64,000 nt of DNA from Marinobacter persicus (GTDB taxonomy: Bacteria > Pseudomonadota > Gammaproteobacteria > Pseudomonadales > Oleiphilaceae). Position numbers and translations under genes: made by a program. Location of the stretch: the NCBI RefSeq assembly GCF_002934325.1, contig NZ_PTIV01000015.1, positions 1-64,000 of the forward strand. The letters run 5' to 3'. The notes under the pieces are model-generated. The model saw only the letters and a program-made list of their open reading frames with translations. It searched no databases and was not told where the DNA came from. Below are positions 16,471 through 57,408 of this stretch, one piece after another (position 1 is the stretch's first letter; every line of letters starts with the position of its first letter).

Positions 16471-16618
16471 ACAGAATCGGGTACTCCTGCACCCCATTTG
16501 CCATGTCCAGGTTCACAGCCGGGGCTGTGTAAAGGTGACTCTGAAGTGGAGCGGCATTAGAATGCGTTCCATTAAAGAAAGTACGCCGGTCAGATGAACC
16601 TCTGACTTTAATAGGCTT

Positions 16619-16653
16619 GAGCCGTATGCCGGTAAACTCGCACGTACGGTTCT
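16619..16653 (+). ncRNA. Group II intron domain V
   Basis: A 35-base hairpin starting GAGCCGTATGCCGG and closing with CGTACGGTTCT has the conserved AGC catalytic triad at 16620-16622 and the paired GAGCCGTA / TACGGTTC stem of bacterial group II introns. It is followed immediately by a domain VI-type hairpin. Confidence 0.85.
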
Positions 16654-16692
16654 GAGGGGGGATGGGCCAATAATAGCTCATCCCTACCCGAC

Positions 16693-46558: not shown

Positions 46559-47079
46559 GCCGGGTGTACATCAGCATTGGCAGTAACATTGAGCGCTACC
46601 GACATGTGACGGCAGCGCTGGATGCATTGGCGGACTGGTTTGGGGAACTGCTGATATCACCGGTCTACGAGACCGAACCGGTGGGGTTTAACGGTTCCAA
46701 TTTCCTGAATCTGGTGGTTGGTATTGATACCGACTGGTCCGTGGGGGAGTTGAGCCGTCGGTTCAAACAGCTCGAGCGGGACAACGGCCGGCAGGTGAAC
46801 GCGCGCAAATTCAGCCCCCGCACGCTGGATCTGGATATCCTGACCTATGACGATGCCGCCGGTACCGTTGATGGCGTGTCGCTGCCCCGGGCCGAAATTC
46901 TCAAGAACGCTTTCGTGCTCCAGCCCCTGGCCGATATTGCCCCGGAGGAGCGGCACCCGGTATGCGGGCAGTCCTATCGCCAGTTGTGGCAGGCGTACGA
47001 CCAGGAACAAAGCCTTTGGCCGGTTGCCTTCAATTGGCAGGGACAGCTCATCTCACGGCCGGTTGGCTGCACGGAATAG
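46555..47079 (+). CDS. folK: HPPK-type pyrophosphokinase, copy 1 (with folB)
   Basis: 174 residues from GTG at 46555. Pyrophosphorylates 6-hydroxymethyl-dihydropterin. Motifs: YISIGSNIERYRH, PVYETEPVGF, and FSPRTLDLDILTYDD with the metal-binding Asp pair. Translationally coupled to folB. Differs substantially from the second folK at 50499-50996, so these are two paralogues, not a recent duplicate. Its 3' end overlaps convergent pgi by 27 bp. Confidence 0.93.
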   Translation: MSRVYISIGSNIERYRHVTAALDALADWFGELLISPVYETEPVGFNGSNFLNLVVGIDTDWSVGELSRRFKQLERDNGRQVNARKFSPRTLDLDILTYDDAAGTVDGVSLPRAEILKNAFVLQPLADIAPEERHPVCGQSYRQLWQAYDQEQSLWPVAFNWQGQLISRPVGCTE

Positions 47080-50498: not shown

Positions 50499-50996
50499 TC
50501 AGTTACGCGCCAGGGGCGGTAGTTTGCGCAAGCCGTTGTCCGGACACTGCAGGCGCAATTCTCGGATGGCCTGCCCGCATGGCAGGGTAATATCCGGGGC
50601 CAGGTCCAGCAGCGGCTGCAGGGCAAAATCCCGGTTGGCCAGCTCAGCATGGGGTACGGTCAGGCGTTCATCCTGGATGCAGTCATTGCCGAACACCAGG
50701 ATGTCCAGATCCAGGGTGCGCGGTCCCCAATGCTGGAGGCGTTCCCGGCCATGGGCCTGTTCGATGTGTTGCAGGTGGTCCAGCAACTGGTGGGCCGTCA
50801 ATGTGGTGACAAGGTGGACGGCGCCGTTGATAAAGTCCGGCTGGTCCTGCGGGCCCACGGGCCGGCTGGCGTAGAACGGCGACTGCGCCACCAGGGTGGT
50901 TTGAGGCAGCATGGCCAGCTCGCTGATGGCCCGGGCGAGTTGTTCGGCTGGGTCCGCCAGATTACTGCCCAGGCCAATGTAGGCGTCAGTGCTCAT
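50499..50996 (-). CDS. folK: HPPK-type pyrophosphokinase, copy 2 (with pcnB)
   Basis: 165 residues. YIGLGSNLADPAEQL, FYASRPVGPQDQPDFINGAV and WGPRTLDLDILVFGND keep all catalytic motifs. This is the canonical FolK position in the pcnB-folK-panB-panC run; it overlaps pcnB by 4 bp. The genome therefore encodes two HPPK-like proteins (see 46555-47079). Confidence 0.96.
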   Translation of the reverse strand: MSTDAYIGLGSNLADPAEQLARAISELAMLPQTTLVAQSPFYASRPVGPQDQPDFINGAVHLVTTLTAHQLLDHLQHIEQAHGRERLQHWGPRTLDLDILVFGNDCIQDERLTVPHAELANRDFALQPLLDLAPDITLPCGQAIRELRLQCPDNGLRKLPPLARN

Positions 50997-52360
50997 TGCT
51001 GCGGCCGTTTATGGGATGGCTTGCGTTTCTTGCGTTTCTTGCGCGGGGCACTGGTGCCCAGCTGGGCGATCATTTTGGACTGCCCGGATTCGTCGGCATT
51101 CTGGAAGTCTGTCCACCACTGGCCGAGGCCGGGTTCAATTTCACCAGCTGATTCGCGTACCAGCAGGAAATCGTAGGCGGCGCGGAAACGTGGGTGGGTG
51201 AGGGTACCGAACGCGCGCTTGCCCTGACGCCGTGGCAGTCGCATCTGGAGCTCCCAGATTTCCTTCATGGGTCCGGAGAAGCGCTTGGGAATGGCGGTGG
51301 AGTGCACCTGCTCGCCAATCACGCGGGCGATAGCGCCATGTAGTGCCGGTTGTACCGGGTCGCCGTGATCCTGTCGCCGGCGCCATTCCGCCTGGAGGGC
51401 AGGCCATAGCATGGCGGCGAACATGAAGTAGGGGGTAACGGATTTGCCGCGGGCAATGCGGGCATCGGTATTGCGAAGGGCCTGGCGGATCAATTCATCC
51501 GATTCGCCGGCATCAATGGCCGCAGCGGTTTCCGGGAACAGTGGCGCCAGCAGATTGTATTCCCGTAGCAGGTCATAAGTAACCTCCCCATGCCCGGCAG
51601 AGAGGAGTTTCAGCACCTCATCAAACAGTCGGGCCGGGGGGATGTTTGTCAGCAGCGGCGCCATCTCCCGGATCGGTGCCCGGGTTTCCGGTTCGATTTC
51701 AAAGCCCAGTTTGCCGGCGAATCGAATCGCCCTGAGCATGCGCACCGGGTCTTCCCGATAACGGGTTTCCGGGTCGCCAATCAGACGAATCAAGCCGTTT
51801 TTAAGGTCCTGCACGCCGTTGGCGTAATCGATAACGGTGAAGTCTCGAATGCAGTAGTACAGCGCATTGATGGTGAAATCACGACGCAGCGCATCCTCTT
51901 CCTGGGAGCCGTAGACGTTATCGCGCAGTAACTGGCCGTGTTCCGAAGTTTTGTGCTCATGGTCGCCGACTTCGTCCTCCACGTCCTTGGCATTGCCCCG
52001 GAAGGTGGTTACTTCAATCACCTCCCGACCAAAAATGACATGCACAATTCGGAACCGGCGGCCAATCAGGCGGGAGTTGCGGAACAGGTCGTGCACTTCT
52101 TCGGGGGTGGCGTTGGTGGCAATGTCAAAGTCCTTGGGCTTGCCGCCCAGAAGGATGTCCCGCACGCCGCCACCGACCAGGTAGGCTTCATACCCGGCTT
52201 TATTGAGGCGATGCAGCACTTTTTTGGCCGGCTCGCTGATCATCGAGCGAGAGACATTGTGCTGATCTCGCGGGATCTCCTGCCGCTGGTATTGTCTGGC
52301 TTTCTTCTTACCGTTACCGGGCATGAATGAGCGGATTCTTTCTACAAGTCGATTTGGCAT
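50993..52360 (-). CDS. pcnB: Poly(A) polymerase I
   Basis: 455 residues. Adds poly(A) tails that promote RNA decay. Class II nucleotidyltransferase head: VGGGVRDILLGGKPKDFDIATNATPEEV with the catalytic DxD (about 78-80), GRRFRIVHVIFG, RDFTINALYY, and RYREDPVRMLRAIRFAGKLGF. The Lys/Arg-rich C-terminus (RKKRKKRKPSHKRP) and an N-terminal basic extension are typical. Located downstream of the CrcZ-like RNA, as in Pseudomonas. Confidence 0.96.
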   Translation of the reverse strand: MPNRLVERIRSFMPGNGKKKARQYQRQEIPRDQHNVSRSMISEPAKKVLHRLNKAGYEAYLVGGGVRDILLGGKPKDFDIATNATPEEVHDLFRNSRLIGRRFRIVHVIFGREVIEVTTFRGNAKDVEDEVGDHEHKTSEHGQLLRDNVYGSQEEDALRRDFTINALYYCIRDFTVIDYANGVQDLKNGLIRLIGDPETRYREDPVRMLRAIRFAGKLGFEIEPETRAPIREMAPLLTNIPPARLFDEVLKLLSAGHGEVTYDLLREYNLLAPLFPETAAAIDAGESDELIRQALRNTDARIARGKSVTPYFMFAAMLWPALQAEWRRRQDHGDPVQPALHGAIARVIGEQVHSTAIPKRFSGPMKEIWELQMRLPRRQGKRAFGTLTHPRFRAAYDFLLVRESAGEIEPGLGQWWTDFQNADESGQSKMIAQLGTSAPRKKRKKRKPSHKRPQQ

Positions 52361-52483
52361 GGAAGTCCGTGATTGCTCTGAGCAAAACGGGAAGTTTACC
52401 GGTTTGGACAGGATTTGCCCATGTCTGGAAGGTTTCGGTCACGGAATCGGGCGCCATGGGCGGGAAAATGGAAGGGCCAATAA

Positions 52484-52859
52484 TTAAAAGGCGGGTCCGC
52501 TTTCGCGAACCCGCCCTGAAATGGTTGCCGATCTGCATTGTTCTTGTTTTTGCCGGGCTTTTTGTTGTTGTTCCCGTTATTTGCCCTTTTCGGGCATTAA
52601 GCAGTGCAAACGGAAAGCTTTGAATACGCAGAGTGGTCAGTAGCAGGGTGCAAGCTGAGGATTAATGTAGCGCTGCCTTCAGGCATTTATTTTTCTCTAC
52701 ACTGTCCACTTGCAACCGCCGTGGGATCACTAAAAAGCATAGTACCCAAAACGCTCAGTTCGCTTACGCCCTATTTTTGTTTTTGTTACCGGGCGCTCGG
52801 TGCAGCTTTTTGTTTTTATTGTGTCGCTGCGTTGTCACTTTTGTTTTTGTTGTTGTGCG
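52484..52859 (-). ncRNA. crcZ: CrcZ-like small RNA, Hfq/Crc sponge
   Basis: Lies between cbrB and pcnB, the position of crcZ in Pseudomonas. Five A-rich motifs on the minus strand fit the AANAANAA target of Hfq/Crc: at 52541-52552, 52559-52572, 52772-52787, 52807-52821 and 52839-52857 (for example AACAACAACAAAAA). It starts about 12 bases after a sigma-54 box and ends in a terminator (52486-52515), giving about 375 nt; Pseudomonas CrcZ is near 400 nt. By analogy it titrates Hfq/Crc from catabolic mRNAs when CbrAB is active. Exact ends are estimated. Confidence 0.8.
52486..52515 (-). terminator. Terminator of the CrcZ-like RNA
   Basis: Stem GGCGGGTCCGC / GCGAACCCGCC (52490-52500, 52505-52515), one mismatch, TTTC loop; the minus strand continues TTTTAATTATT. 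Confidence 0.8.
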
Positions 52860-52869
52860 CTTAATCGTC

Positions 52870-52885
52870 TGCAGAGCGTGTGCCA
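52870..52885 (-). promoter_or_regulatory. Sigma-54 promoter of the CrcZ-like RNA
   Basis: Minus strand TGGCACACGCTCTGCA: a complete -24 TGGCAC and a -12 CTGCA, with GG and GC exactly 10 bases apart. Predicted start at about 52859. Confidence 0.8.
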
Positions 52886-52936
52886 GTTTTTGTAAATCGT
52901 TAAAAATCAGTGAGTTAATATTTTTGTGGAGGTAAG

Positions 52937-53020
52937 TGTTACCCCGTATACGAGGGGATGTGTTACTGGCGGGCCGGTGTTACCGGAGGAGTTGTTACCG
53001 TGAGGAACAGGCAGGTAACA
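52937..53020. promoter_or_regulatory. Repeated TGTTAC/GTAACA sites, probable CbrB enhancer
   Basis: TGTTAC occurs at 52937, 52961, 52978 and 52993, and its inverse GTAACA at 53015-53020. All lie 50-150 bp upstream of the sigma-54 box, the right range for a bacterial enhancer-binding protein. Pseudomonas CbrB sites are described as TGTTAC-type inverted repeats, so CbrB binding is a strong inference. Confidence 0.65.
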
Positions 53021-53039
53021 GTGGGCGGGAGCCGTCTGG

Positions 53040-54452
53040 TCAGCTCCCGCTATTGCCTGATGTTTTTTTTCGAGGAATACCGAGCCGCTGCCGGCGTTCC
53101 CAGAGCGATTTCCGGCTGATGCCCAGTTTGTGGGCCAATTCGGTTTCGCTCATCCGGTCCTGGTTCTCCAGGACGTAGTGCTGGAAATAATCTTCCAGTG
53201 ACAGGTCGTTTGCCGGTTCCGGGGTGGCTGGCGACGTGGCTTCGTTGCCACCTTCGACGAGAGTTTCCGGAATAAACTCGTCGTCCGGTTCGCTGTCCAG
53301 ATCCAGGACGGCCGGGGTGATGACATCGCTGTCTGCCAGGATGGAGGCCCGTTCAATGGCATTTTCCAGCTCCCGCACGTTGCCTGGCCAGGGGTAACGT
53401 TCCAGCAGTTGCATGGCTTCCGGGCTGAGGTTGAGTGTGGGCCGCTCCAGTTTGTCGGCCTGTTGTTGCAGGAAGCGCTGTGCCAGGCCAAGGATGTCGG
53501 CCCGCCGCTCACGCAGTGGCGGGATGCGAATCTGCATCACATTCAGTCGGTAATAGAGGTCTTCCCGGAACTCGCCGGTGCGGGTCATGGCCTTCAGGTT
53601 GCGGTGGGTGGCCGCAATCATGCGCACATTCACCTTCCGGCTCTGGGTGGAGCCGACCCGGCGAATCTCGCTTTCCTGCAATACCCGCAGCAGGCGCGCC
53701 TGGGCTTCGGCAGGGAGCTCACCGATCTCGTCCAGGAACAGGCTGCCGCCATCGGCGGCTTCAATCAGCCCGGTGCGGGCCGATACGGCACCGGTGAACG
53801 AGCCTTTCTCATGGCCGAACAGTTCCGACTCGATCAGGCTCTCCGGAATGGCCGCGCAGTTCACCGAGATTAACGGTTTGTTTGCCCTGGGGCTGAGCAG
53901 GTGCAGGGCGCGTGCGGCCAGTTCTTTCCCGGTTCCGGATTCGCCCTGAATGAGTACCGTGGATTCGGTCGGTGCCACCTTGCGAATCAGGGTGAAGACT
54001 TTCTGCATGGCTTCGCATTGGCCATACATGATGCCCGACGGGTCGTTCTGCTGGCTGTTCGCCGCGCCGGTATTGCTGGTTTCGGTTGCGGCCGGAGTGT
54101 CTCCGGTCTTGCGCGCGAGGATGCTTTCCACCGCCGCCAGCATTTCGTCGTGGTCAAACGGCTTGGCGATGTAATCCACCGCACCCATCTTCATGGAATC
54201 GACCGCCGAGCGCAGGCTGGCGTAACTTGTCATGATCAGTACGGGGGTGTTGGGAGCCCGGTTGATCATTTCCGTACCGGCGGCGCCCGGTAGTCGCAGG
54301 TCGGTGATGATCAGGTCAAAGTTTTCCGGTTCCTGCTCTTCCGCAGCTTCCACTGAGACGGCGTCAGCGACCTCATAACCGGCATGTTGCAGCAGTTTGC
54401 GCACGGCTGAGCGAATGATGTCTTCGTCTTCAACAATCAGAATGCGGGGCAT
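53040..54452 (-). CDS. cbrB: Sigma-54-dependent response regulator CbrB
   Basis: 470 residues in three parts. Receiver (acceptor Asp51, Lys97), AAA+ domain with Walker A GESGTGKE (170-177), sigma-54 loop written GSFTGA (217-222, Ser for the usual Ala) and Walker B SLFLDEIG, then a Fis-type helix-turn-helix (ETELAHKLGISRKSLWERRQRLGI). NtrC family. Paired with CbrA directly upstream and followed by its likely main target, the CrcZ-like RNA. Controls carbon/nitrogen balance in Pseudomonas. Confidence 0.95.
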   Translation of the reverse strand: MPRILIVEDEDIIRSAVRKLLQHAGYEVADAVSVEAAEEQEPENFDLIITDLRLPGAAGTEMINRAPNTPVLIMTSYASLRSAVDSMKMGAVDYIAKPFDHDEMLAAVESILARKTGDTPAATETSNTGAANSQQNDPSGIMYGQCEAMQKVFTLIRKVAPTESTVLIQGESGTGKELAARALHLLSPRANKPLISVNCAAIPESLIESELFGHEKGSFTGAVSARTGLIEAADGGSLFLDEIGELPAEAQARLLRVLQESEIRRVGSTQSRKVNVRMIAATHRNLKAMTRTGEFREDLYYRLNVMQIRIPPLRERRADILGLAQRFLQQQADKLERPTLNLSPEAMQLLERYPWPGNVRELENAIERASILADSDVITPAVLDLDSEPDDEFIPETLVEGGNEATSPATPEPANDLSLEDYFQHYVLENQDRMSETELAHKLGISRKSLWERRQRLGIPRKKTSGNSGS

Positions 54453-54459
54453 AGGGCGT

Positions 54460-57408
54460 TCAGGACCTTTCGTTCGGGCTGCTGTTACCGGTATCGGCTT
54501 CAGGTTCGCAGGCTGGCAGGCGGAGCCTTACGCAGGTGCCCCGCCCGGTAACGGTGTCGGCGGGGCTTTCAACCTGAATGTGGCCGTAGTGCTCTTCAAC
54601 AATACTGTAGACCAATGACAGACCAAGCCCCGTTCCCTTGTTGGGTGGCTTGGTGGTGTAGAACGGCTCAAACACATGCTCAAGCTGCTCGGCCGGGATG
54701 CCTGAGCCGTCATCAATGACTTCGATAATAGCGGAGTAGCCGTCGCTGTTTCCACTGATCCGCACGTTGCTGCCTTCCGGTGACGCATCCCGGGAATTGG
54801 CCAGCAGGTTCACGAATACCTGAACCAGGCGCTGCTCGTCGCCCATGATGTAAAGGTCCTCCGGGCATTCGTTCAGGAAGTGGATGCCCATGCCCTTGTC
54901 GCTCAACGACAGCAGGTTGATGGATTCAGCGACGCACCGGTGCAGGCTCACCGGTTCATAGCGGTTGGCCTGGGCATGGTTGCCGGTGCGGGCAAAGTTC
55001 ATCAGCGATTGCAGGATGTTGGACACCCGCCGGGTCTGCTGCTGGATATGGTCGGCCGTTTCCAGGATGGCAGGGTCGGTGGTCTCGAATTTCAGGTTTT
55101 GTGCCAGCGATGAGATGCCGGTCACCGGGTTGCCAATCTCATGGGCCACACCGGCCGCCAGCCGGCCGACGGAGGCCAGTCGCTCACTGTGGATCAGCTC
55201 GTCCTCCAGCAGGCGGGTTTCGGTCTGGTCCTCCACCAGAATAATGGAGCCGCCTTCCGGGTGGTCCGGGCCGCTGAGTGCTGCCTTGTGCAGGTTCAAC
55301 CAGTGGGGTTTGCCCCGCAGGTCCAGCCGGTGTTTATGCCGGTGCAGGTCATCGCCGCTGTTGAAGTCTTCCAGCAGCAGGTACCAGTGTTCCGGCAGGG
55401 CCTGCAGGCGGGCACCCACGACTTCATCAGCAGGAATGCCGGTGAGCTCCTCCATGGTGTGATTCCACATCAGGATTTCACCGTCATCGCCCACCGAACA
55501 GGCAGGAATGGGCAGATTCTGCAGGGTTTGGCGGTAATGTCGGCGCAGGTTGTCCAGTTCCCCGGCAAGGCCGGTGAGCTTGTTCTGGTAGTCCCCCAGG
55601 GCCCGTTCCACATAGCGGATATCCTGACCGGTGTGCTCGGAGGTTACCGGCTTGAAGCCCAGGTGGCGCTTGACGATATCCCGGGCAATGGACGGCCCCA
55701 GCAGGCCGGACAGGTTGACCTCAATCTGGTCTCGAAGCCGGCGTAATTGGTAGGGGCGGAACTCGACGGGAGGCAGTCGAAGTTGCGACAAGGCGCGCTC
55801 TACTTCCCGGCGGGCAACGTGATTGCCAAGCGGGTCGGTCAGCTGTTGGATGAATTCATTGGAGGAGGTGGCCTCCAGTTCCCTTCGTTGAGGTCGTGAC
55901 AGCGCGCCGATGGAGCAGGATTGGGCGGCGCTGGCCTCTTCGGGTGAGGTTTTGCTGAACAGGGAAACCAGGATGAATACGCTGGCGTTGATGGCCAGGC
56001 TGAAGAACGTGGACAGGTGCCAGTCATCCTCGGATGGGCTGACCGGTAATTGCATGGCCTGGAGCAGGTCGGCGGTGTAGGAGAAGGGCAGAACCATGGT
56101 GACAACCCAGATCGCCAGACCGGTCAGCAATCCGGCAATCAAGCCACGGCGGTTGCCCTGACGCCAGTAAATCACGCCCAGGGCGCCAGGCAGCAATTGC
56201 AGGGTGCCGGTGAGCGAGATGGCGGCGAGGATCTGCAAATCCAGGTACCGGCCCACCAGTTCATGGAACAGCAGGGCCAGGAACAGGATGATCGCAATCA
56301 GCAGGCGCTTGAGCCACTGCAGCCAACGGTAGATGTCCGCCTGGTCGCGGGGCGTCTTCAGGGGCAGTACCACATGGTTCAGCATCATGCCAGACAGGGC
56401 GAGGGTGCTGACGATCATCAGTCCGCTGCCGGCAGACAGGCCGGCGATATACAGGAACAGCGACAACTGCGGAAGCGATAGCGCCTGGCCGATGCCGATG
56501 GCAAACAAGGCCGGTGAGGTATCAACGGCCAGCGCCTGGCCACCCCATGCCACCAGGGGCACGGGCAGGCCGATGAGAAGCAGATAAAGAGGGAAACCCC
56601 AGCTGGCTTTCGTCAGTGCTCCCGGCGAGGGGTTCTCGGCAAAGATCATGTGGTACATGTGGGGCAGCACGAGCGCCGAGGCAAAGGACATGACGGCCAG
56701 TGCCCGCCAGCTGCCGTTGCTGCCCGGGTCGATGGAGGGCTCAAAGGTGAACCAGCTCTGCAGGCCGCCAAACCCGCCAAGAACCGAAAATACAATAACC
56801 ACACCCAGCACCAGCATGGCGATGATCTTGACGACGGAGTCAAAAGCAATGGCCAGCACCAGGCCCTCGTGGCTGCCAGCATTCTGGCGTTGCCGGGCAC
56901 CGAACAGGATCGTGAACATGACCACCGTCAGGCTGAACATGAAGGCGATCAGCTTCGGGGAAGTTTCCGGCGCCAGCAGGCTGGCGGACAGGGTTACAGC
57001 CTGGATCTGCATGCTCAGCAAGGCCAGGATCGTCGCCCCGGAGCACAAGGTCACCAGGGTGCCGGCCCATTGGCTGCGGTAGCGGTATGCAAACAGGTCG
57101 GCCAGGGAGGTCAACTGGTGGGCCCGGCTGATCCGTAGAATCGGGTTCAGCAGCACCGGCGCCAACAGGAAGGCGATACTGATGCCCAGATAATAGGCGA
57201 CGAAATCGTATCCGGACTCCATTGCCATGCCCACGGCACCGTAGATGGCCCAGATGCCGGTGAACACCCCGAGGCTCAGGGTGTAGACCAGGGGATGTCG
57301 GACCCAGGCCCGTAACCGGGCGGTCTGTTCGGTGGTCCAGGCGATACCGAACAGTAGTGCCAGGTAAGCAAAACTGGCCAGCAAGAGGCCGGTGGCGTTA
57401 AGTGTCAT
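54460..57408 (-). CDS. cbrA: Transporter-like sensor histidine kinase CbrA
   Basis: 982 residues. The first 490 or so form 12-13 membrane helices of the sodium:solute symporter (SSS) family (GAVGMAMESGYDFVAYYLGI near helix 2). A linker with the STAC-like region follows, then a PAS domain (about 625-740: IPACSVGDDGEILMWNHTMEELTG), HisKA with the phospho-His in GVAHEIGNPV, and HATPase (LLANSRDASPEG, DDGSGIP, GTGLGLSLVYSIV). Pseudomonas CbrA responds to carbon/nitrogen status and may transport histidine. Start overlaps gluQ stop by 11 bp; cbrB follows after 7 bases. Confidence 0.95.
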   Translation of the reverse strand: MTLNATGLLLASFAYLALLFGIAWTTEQTARLRAWVRHPLVYTLSLGVFTGIWAIYGAVGMAMESGYDFVAYYLGISIAFLLAPVLLNPILRISRAHQLTSLADLFAYRYRSQWAGTLVTLCSGATILALLSMQIQAVTLSASLLAPETSPKLIAFMFSLTVVMFTILFGARQRQNAGSHEGLVLAIAFDSVVKIIAMLVLGVVIVFSVLGGFGGLQSWFTFEPSIDPGSNGSWRALAVMSFASALVLPHMYHMIFAENPSPGALTKASWGFPLYLLLIGLPVPLVAWGGQALAVDTSPALFAIGIGQALSLPQLSLFLYIAGLSAGSGLMIVSTLALSGMMLNHVVLPLKTPRDQADIYRWLQWLKRLLIAIILFLALLFHELVGRYLDLQILAAISLTGTLQLLPGALGVIYWRQGNRRGLIAGLLTGLAIWVVTMVLPFSYTADLLQAMQLPVSPSEDDWHLSTFFSLAINASVFILVSLFSKTSPEEASAAQSCSIGALSRPQRRELEATSSNEFIQQLTDPLGNHVARREVERALSQLRLPPVEFRPYQLRRLRDQIEVNLSGLLGPSIARDIVKRHLGFKPVTSEHTGQDIRYVERALGDYQNKLTGLAGELDNLRRHYRQTLQNLPIPACSVGDDGEILMWNHTMEELTGIPADEVVGARLQALPEHWYLLLEDFNSGDDLHRHKHRLDLRGKPHWLNLHKAALSGPDHPEGGSIILVEDQTETRLLEDELIHSERLASVGRLAAGVAHEIGNPVTGISSLAQNLKFETTDPAILETADHIQQQTRRVSNILQSLMNFARTGNHAQANRYEPVSLHRCVAESINLLSLSDKGMGIHFLNECPEDLYIMGDEQRLVQVFVNLLANSRDASPEGSNVRISGNSDGYSAIIEVIDDGSGIPAEQLEHVFEPFYTTKPPNKGTGLGLSLVYSIVEEHYGHIQVESPADTVTGRGTCVRLRLPACEPEADTGNSSPNERS

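Follow-up and report, generated by a model that had tools for sequence, protein, structure and literature searches.

A predicted CrcZ homologue in the cbrB-pcnB gap of a Marinobacter-like genome, with similar loci across the Pseudomonadales

In Pseudomonas aeruginosa, CbrA/B and RpoN govern production of the RNA CrcZ, whose A-R-N triplets are believed to let it sequester Hfq/Crc (PMC6422490). Promoters targeted by CbrB in P. putida combine a forward CbrB subsite and two reverse ones with an IHF site and a GG-N10-GC box (PMC6296734), and in Azotobacter vinelandii CrcZ and CrcY modulate Crc-Hfq catabolite repression (PMC6292655). The CbrAB system has been stated to be exclusive to the Pseudomonadaceae, with representatives in Pseudomonas and Azotobacter (review PMC8871633; research paper PMC6296734). 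CbrA, CbrB and Marinobacter are named together in a metatranscriptome paper (PMC5073097), and CbrA and CbrB are named with Halomonas in the literature, among the matches listed. A literature search that left out most subscription journals returned no paper naming both CrcZ and Marinobacter. Judged by title and the start of the abstract, the papers returned for Crc/Hfq catabolite repression in Marinobacter, and for CrcZ with Halomonas, dealt only with other subjects. Among the matches listed, none was on the subject for Marinobacter with catabolite repression (by title) or for tandem CrcZ/CrcY copies (by title and start of abstract), and nothing was said there of CrcZ or CbrAB outside the known families. 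Marinobacter is a genus known for hydrocarbon degradation, and NCBI taxonomy places it in the Marinobacteraceae within the Pseudomonadales.

The window, by which we mean the whole stretch of 64,000 nucleotides that was analysed, carries cbrA, cbrB, an intergenic gap and pcnB in that order on the minus strand. An earlier note on this DNA had described a gap of about 680 bp holding the parts of a crcZ locus. The gap measures 679 bp, and the sites, box, A-rich clusters and terminator could all be located in it, as listed below. Identities are measured against the window over a conservation set of 46 distinct family-level gaps whose CbrB is at least 72% identical to the window's.

54460-57408, minus strand: cbrA, SLC5-type transporter domain fused to a histidine kinase, 982 aa
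53040-54452, minus strand: cbrB, NtrC-type response regulator, sigma-54 promoter activator
53015-53020, minus strand: CbrB-type subsite, forward (minus-strand TGTTAC; plus strand GTAACA), identity 1.00 in the 46 gaps
52993-52998, minus strand: CbrB-type subsite, reverse R1 (GTAACA), identity 0.97 in the 46 gaps
52978-52983, minus strand: additional GTAACA, poorly conserved, identity 0.39 in the 46 gaps
52961-52966, minus strand: CbrB-type subsite, reverse R2 (GTAACA), identity 1.00 in the 46 gaps
52937-52942, minus strand: CbrB-type subsite, reverse R3 (GTAACA), identity 0.68 in the 46 gaps
52905-52917, minus strand: IHF-like site, one mismatch
52870-52885, minus strand: sigma-54 -24/-12 promoter TGGCACACGCTCTGCA, 10 of 12 consensus positions, identity 0.83 in the 46 gaps
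52484-52861, minus strand: crcZ-like RNA, predicted length about 375 nt, with the start deduced from the box and the end from the terminator
52841-52855, minus strand: A-rich cluster A1 (CAACAACAAAAACAA), identity 0.96
52807-52822, minus strand: A-rich cluster A2, in the loop of hairpin 52802-52830, identity 0.85
52774-52790, minus strand: A-rich cluster A3, in the loop of hairpin 52766-52796, identity 0.90
52606-52763, minus strand: central domain, closed by a long-range stem pairing 52742-52763 with 52606-52627
52686-52697, minus strand: A-rich cluster A4, weak, identity 0.65
52558-52574, minus strand: A-rich cluster A5, identity 0.61, not above the rest of the RNA
52537-52552, minus strand: A-rich cluster A6, identity 0.84
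52488-52517, minus strand: intrinsic terminator hairpin, 13 pairs, 9 of them G-C
50993-52360, minus strand: pcnB, poly(A) polymerase, downstream neighbour (TIGR01942, 543 bits)

Read on the plus strand, the four TGTTAC and one GTAACA upstream of the promoter are present just as had been described, and a fifth plus-strand TGTTAC (52784-52789) falls within the RNA. The -24/-12 box deserves the label near-consensus that it had been given, and the terminator proposed for the gap was found where the list places it. A-rich motifs on the transcribed strand had been counted as five; their presence stands and the count does not, since AANAANAA occurs downstream of the box in six clusters, of which one consists of a single match and the other five of several overlapping ones. 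The arrangement of subsites, IHF-like site and box corresponds to the promoter layout described for CbrB targets in P. putida. No sigma-70-like promoter was found in 52300-53100. Set against 5000 dinucleotide shuffles of the gap, the six TGTTAC/GTAACA sites (shuffle mean 0.31) were equalled in none, the six A-clusters (shuffle mean 1.37) in four, and the sigma-54 box in 64. A joint criterion combining promoter, sites and A-clusters is passed by the window's gap and by one of the 5000 shuffles, which argues for homology with the Pseudomonas locus, as does the cbrA-cbrB-RNA-pcnB order, common to Pseudomonas loci.

A covariance search bears directly on the proposal that this is a CrcZ-like RNA, and agrees with it. 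The Rfam model RF01675 (CrcZ) matches 52456-52853 on the minus strand over model positions 1-398, its full length, with 61.7 bits and E 2.4e-15. The only remaining match in the genome has E 9.3, so that the model reveals no second copy of the CrcY or CrcX kind; both results favour homology. The score lies below the gathering cut-off of 95 bits, and a scan at the gathering threshold therefore misses the window's CrcZ: at such thresholds Rfam reports nothing at the cbrB-pcnB gap, and the whole window yields a tRNA and a group II intron only, the latter at 16617-16692 on the plus strand with 58.3 bits. Several of the model's pairs, those of the hairpin round the third A-motif among them, are broken in the window's aligned sequence, which forms a hairpin of its own near the model's A3-equivalent hairpin. 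Across the family, RF01675 matches 32 of 41 genomes at E 0.01 (29 of the 34 of good quality), leaving nine without a match at that threshold, five of them of good quality; none of the 41 reaches the gathering cut-off. Mangrovitalea (L109) has no Rfam match at 0.01, yet its gap carries the full architecture, and the Rfam-based count is therefore a lower bound. A-rich stretches also produce weak CrcZ matches, which appeared in 9 of 14 control genomes at E 10 and in one of 14 at E 0.01. On this comparison, the window RNA is best described as a CrcZ homologue and not as a member of RF01675 as curated.

Conservation within the family is concentrated in the CbrB sites, the A-motifs and the central stem, a distribution that again argues for homology. 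A bases in the motifs (A4 excluded) reach a conservation of 0.91 and the RNA's remaining A bases 0.56. Identity across the 46 gaps is 0.67 in the remainder of the RNA and, in the flanks, 0.25 and 0.49. The pattern named beforehand as refuting, in which the flanks are conserved and the A-motifs are not, is thus reversed. When the motif mask was shifted circularly, 18 of 352 positions, counting the true one, did equally well; this test is the weaker because other parts of the RNA, such as the central stem, are conserved as well.

A consensus fold was obtained from 25 aligned family RNAs picked for spread, and comprises the A2 hairpin, the A3 hairpin, the long-range stem and the terminator. These four helices are paired in 98.2% of cells, against 27.5-46.5% for slid controls, a figure that benefits from the fold having been built on that very alignment. 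Both-side changes are seen at nine pairs, against 3.0 in shuffles and with none of 500 shuffles reaching that number, and pairing and changes together support the homologue reading. Covariation is strong in the A3 hairpin (98.0% paired; both-side changes at four of six pairs, in 2 to 11 sequences) and thin in the A2 hairpin (98.4% paired; three of five pairs, in one sequence each). The terminator has both-side changes at two of eight pairs among the 25 aligned RNAs. The long-range stem, 19 pairs of which 99.6% of cells are paired, has 12 invariant pairs and none changed on both sides, and the window RNA itself folds with a z of -5.2. A small protein encoded within the RNA was considered and rejected: frames of at least 25 aa occur in 49 of 50 family-level RNAs, the window's single one having 29 aa, and frame, start and length differ among 14 printed loci and the window. 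The conserved central block is explained, without such a protein, by the long-range stem.

The genome encodes CbrA, CbrB, Crc, Hfq and RpoN; the presence of crc and hfq elsewhere in the genome had been proposed as a check, and both were found, RpoN (504.7 bits) too. Residues 4-590 of CbrA match PDB 10ed_A, a 'histidine kinase' (E 4e-171) that we take to be a recent Pseudomonas CbrA structure, and HisKA/HATPase domains are recognised as well. CbrA is about 50-52% identical to the CbrA of the Pseudomonas loci compared, and among the records compared its N-terminal 580 aa are closest to Marinobacter persicus (85%). CbrB is about 61-65% identical to the CbrB of the Pseudomonadaceae loci compared, and in a tree of 31 rows against nine of the genome's own paralogues it falls in a clade with Pseudomonas CbrB (100/99), the nine enhancer-binding paralogues lying outside on long branches. 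Hfq is identical to that of P. aeruginosa at 64 of its first 70 residues, and Crc (268 aa) has P. aeruginosa Crc as its best PDB match (E 3e-68); these resemblances speak for the homologue reading, as does the occurrence in family genomes of CrcZ matches and of Crc, the latter at a threshold of E 1e-60 in 39 of 41 genomes, all 34 good-quality ones included. The crc gene lies near pyrE-like and rph-like frames, names that we read from the sequence. Crc also passes the exonuclease III model TIGR00633 (167.6 against 99.05 bits), but has GANL in place of GDMN and VQD in place of LQE, GDMN and LQE being active-site motifs of exonuclease III. Among Crc dimer residues named for the P. aeruginosa Hfq/Crc/RNA structure, K135, R140 and E193 are kept, and E142, R230 and R233 are changed to Q, K and Q, respectively (PMC6422490; numbering is that of the structure chain minus 3).

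Candidate targets were sought genome-wide with the strict motif AAYAAYAAYAA, which has 14 matches at 12 places, one of them the crcZ-like RNA itself, too few for statistics. One match, AACAACAACAA (L217:1501-1533), begins 30 nt before the start codon of a catechol 2,3-dioxygenase (TIGR03211, 419 bits), a kind of gene that is under Crc control in Pseudomonas. We regard this leader as a candidate Hfq/Crc target, and its motif as a further point in favour of a CrcZ homologue. A 332-aa frame that looks to us like rpoS is preceded by two strict motifs, at distances of about 51 and 121 nt (L218/L219), another motif precedes a frame that we would assign to a CRP/Vfr relative, and several occur elsewhere.

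We consider it very probable that the gap encodes a CrcZ homologue that is driven by CbrB and RpoN and titrates Hfq/Crc when preferred carbon runs out. The analysis shows homology, synteny, conserved sites, paired and in part covarying hairpins, a terminator and the presence of the five partner genes; transcription, the binding of CbrB and IHF, the titration of Hfq/Crc and the physiological role are what we infer from the sequence. When preferred carbon is exhausted, CbrA would activate CbrB, which, on its TGTTAC/GTAACA sites and with the DNA bent by IHF, would cause sigma-54 RNA polymerase to fire from 52870-52885, yielding a minus-strand RNA of about 375 nt. The A-rich clusters, two of them presented in hairpin loops, would bind, together with Crc, to the distal face of each of several Hfq hexamers. 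Hfq/Crc would in this way be drawn off the A-rich ribosome-binding regions of catabolic mRNAs, and those mRNAs would be translated.

Similar loci occur in many families of the Pseudomonadales, contrary to the published exclusivity to Pseudomonas and Azotobacter. A first set of 80 loci was found through CbrA. In 73 of them cbrB and pcnB are both visible; 72 pass the joint criterion and one does not, L152 from Parendozoicomonas, where cbrAB is present and the cbrB-pcnB gap contains no crcZ-like RNA. Elsewhere in the L152 genome, a different contig gives two weak CrcZ matches separated by about 4 kb (G390:C18:42795-43041 and 46684-46951). Together with 30 loci found through CrcZ, some of which repeat the former, and the window, these 73 make up 104 cbrB-pcnB gaps, of which 103 pass, against none of 2080 shuffles. 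CbrA matches occur in 325 of the 390 genomes of the order, most with a second, probably paralogous match. From such matches we drew a second set of 40 cbrAB loci from 21 families, 39 of them assessable; 29 pass, in 16 families, against none of 975 shuffles (seven of nine where the genome also has a CrcZ match, 22 of 30 among the others). The failures are all three loci of f43, all three of f8 (pcnB not beside cbrB), one each in f35 and f2 (the latter at a contig end), and one of two loci in each of f7 and f21. Counting the second set's 16 families with f1, f2, f13, f20 and f34 from the first, the architecture is present in 21 of the order's families examined, and the earlier note's 'outside the genus Pseudomonas' was right and understated. 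Weak CrcZ matches in f21, f23, f30, f38, f40 and f44 share, among the matches listed, the strand of CbrA and lie 4.5-4.8 kb away from its start. Outside the order, four of 369 class-level genomes have marginal CrcZ matches (E 4.5e-6 to 7.7e-4); all are short, 35-94 bp, and were set aside as A-rich chance.

Several lineages depart from the common plan. In f38, six of seven loci carry, between cbrB and pcnB, tandem arrays of two to four crcZ-like units, and every unit comes with a sigma-54-like box, CbrB-type sites and A-clusters of its own. L198 (1-4601) has four, the last two being 97% identical and other pairs 51-59%; L189 has three, while L188, L191, L197 and L065 have two each. The seventh locus, L190, shows one. 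Three f8 loci (L061, L062, L069) have a crcZ-like unit upstream of pcnB, with cbrA and cbrB absent from the stretch examined; a fourth, L060, is cut by the contig end. The f43 loci (L170, L171, L196) keep the cbrB-pcnB order and some A-clusters, with no sigma-54 box and few or no CbrB-type sites. The CbrAB-CrcZ-Hfq/Crc switch is probably an old trait of the Pseudomonadales and not an invention of the Pseudomonadaceae, with f38, f8 and f43 altering it later; in f8 the RNA would have stayed with pcnB and cbrAB would lie elsewhere.

Counted against a CrcZ homologue of the proposed function are the low Rfam score and broken pairs, the unremarkable conservation of A5, the 18 shifts of the motif mask, the Crc dimer differences, the nine unmatched family genomes and the L152 gap. 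The RNA might be derived from CrcZ and transcribed while having another main job, such as a general Hfq sponge in sRNA traffic or base-pairing with targets, Crc-dependent repression being secondary in Marinobacter. The strong conservation of the central domain outside the A-motifs, through its long-range stem, would suit such a role, as would the altered Crc dimer positions and the two strict motifs upstream of the presumed rpoS, from which targets may exceed catabolism. We nonetheless think it unlikely, given that A1-A3 and A6 rank with the most strongly conserved stretches of the RNA and that Crc is so widespread in the family.

Two further readings dispense with a CrcZ homologue altogether. 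That the region is a long 5' leader of pcnB, with no separate RNA, draws on the position of pcnB downstream on the same strand and on the failure to find a sigma-70-like promoter in the interval searched, but a conserved terminator separates the RNA from pcnB and the stretch beyond it is poorly conserved (0.49), and we judge this very improbable; the three f8 units upstream of pcnB without cbrAB fit a leader and a separate RNA equally. Chance A-rich intergenic sequence with coincidental motifs could account for weak CrcZ matches of the kind seen in the controls. It is already contradicted by the conservation, covariation and shuffle results, from the single passing shuffle of the window to the absence of any among those of the other loci, and also by the end-to-end model match and the paired, covarying helices, so that we give it almost no credence. 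The CrcZ homologue remains the reading that we prefer. A gap of the kind that annotation normally leaves blank would then carry a relative of the RNA that switches off carbon catabolite repression in Pseudomonas and, if the locus works as predicted, Hfq/Crc catabolite repression would order substrate use in Marinobacter and many related families. The comparative set of more than 100 loci, with its conserved and variable parts, allows the importance of individual A-motifs, hairpins and CbrB-site spacings to be tested directly, and the tandem copies would offer a natural test of sponge dosage.

Set beside the CrcZ of Pseudomonas (with CrcY and CrcX), the window's locus has the same location between cbrB and pcnB, sigma-54 box, CbrB-type subsites, length and terminator. 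Its A-clusters lie at +31, +65, +98, +191, +313 and +334 from the box, similar to the typical Pseudomonas offsets of +29, +57, +87, about +172, +309 and +333. The CbrB sites are spaced differently: Marinobacter has the forward site at about -133 and reverse sites at -112, -80 and often -57, whereas most Pseudomonas loci have exact sites at about -124 and -104. Some Pseudomonas add CrcY and CrcX (PMC8871633), while the window genome has one detectable crcZ copy. Azotobacter vinelandii, by contrast with the Marinobacter-like window genome, belongs to the Pseudomonadaceae, and the two are likened here by the role of the RNA and not by sequence.
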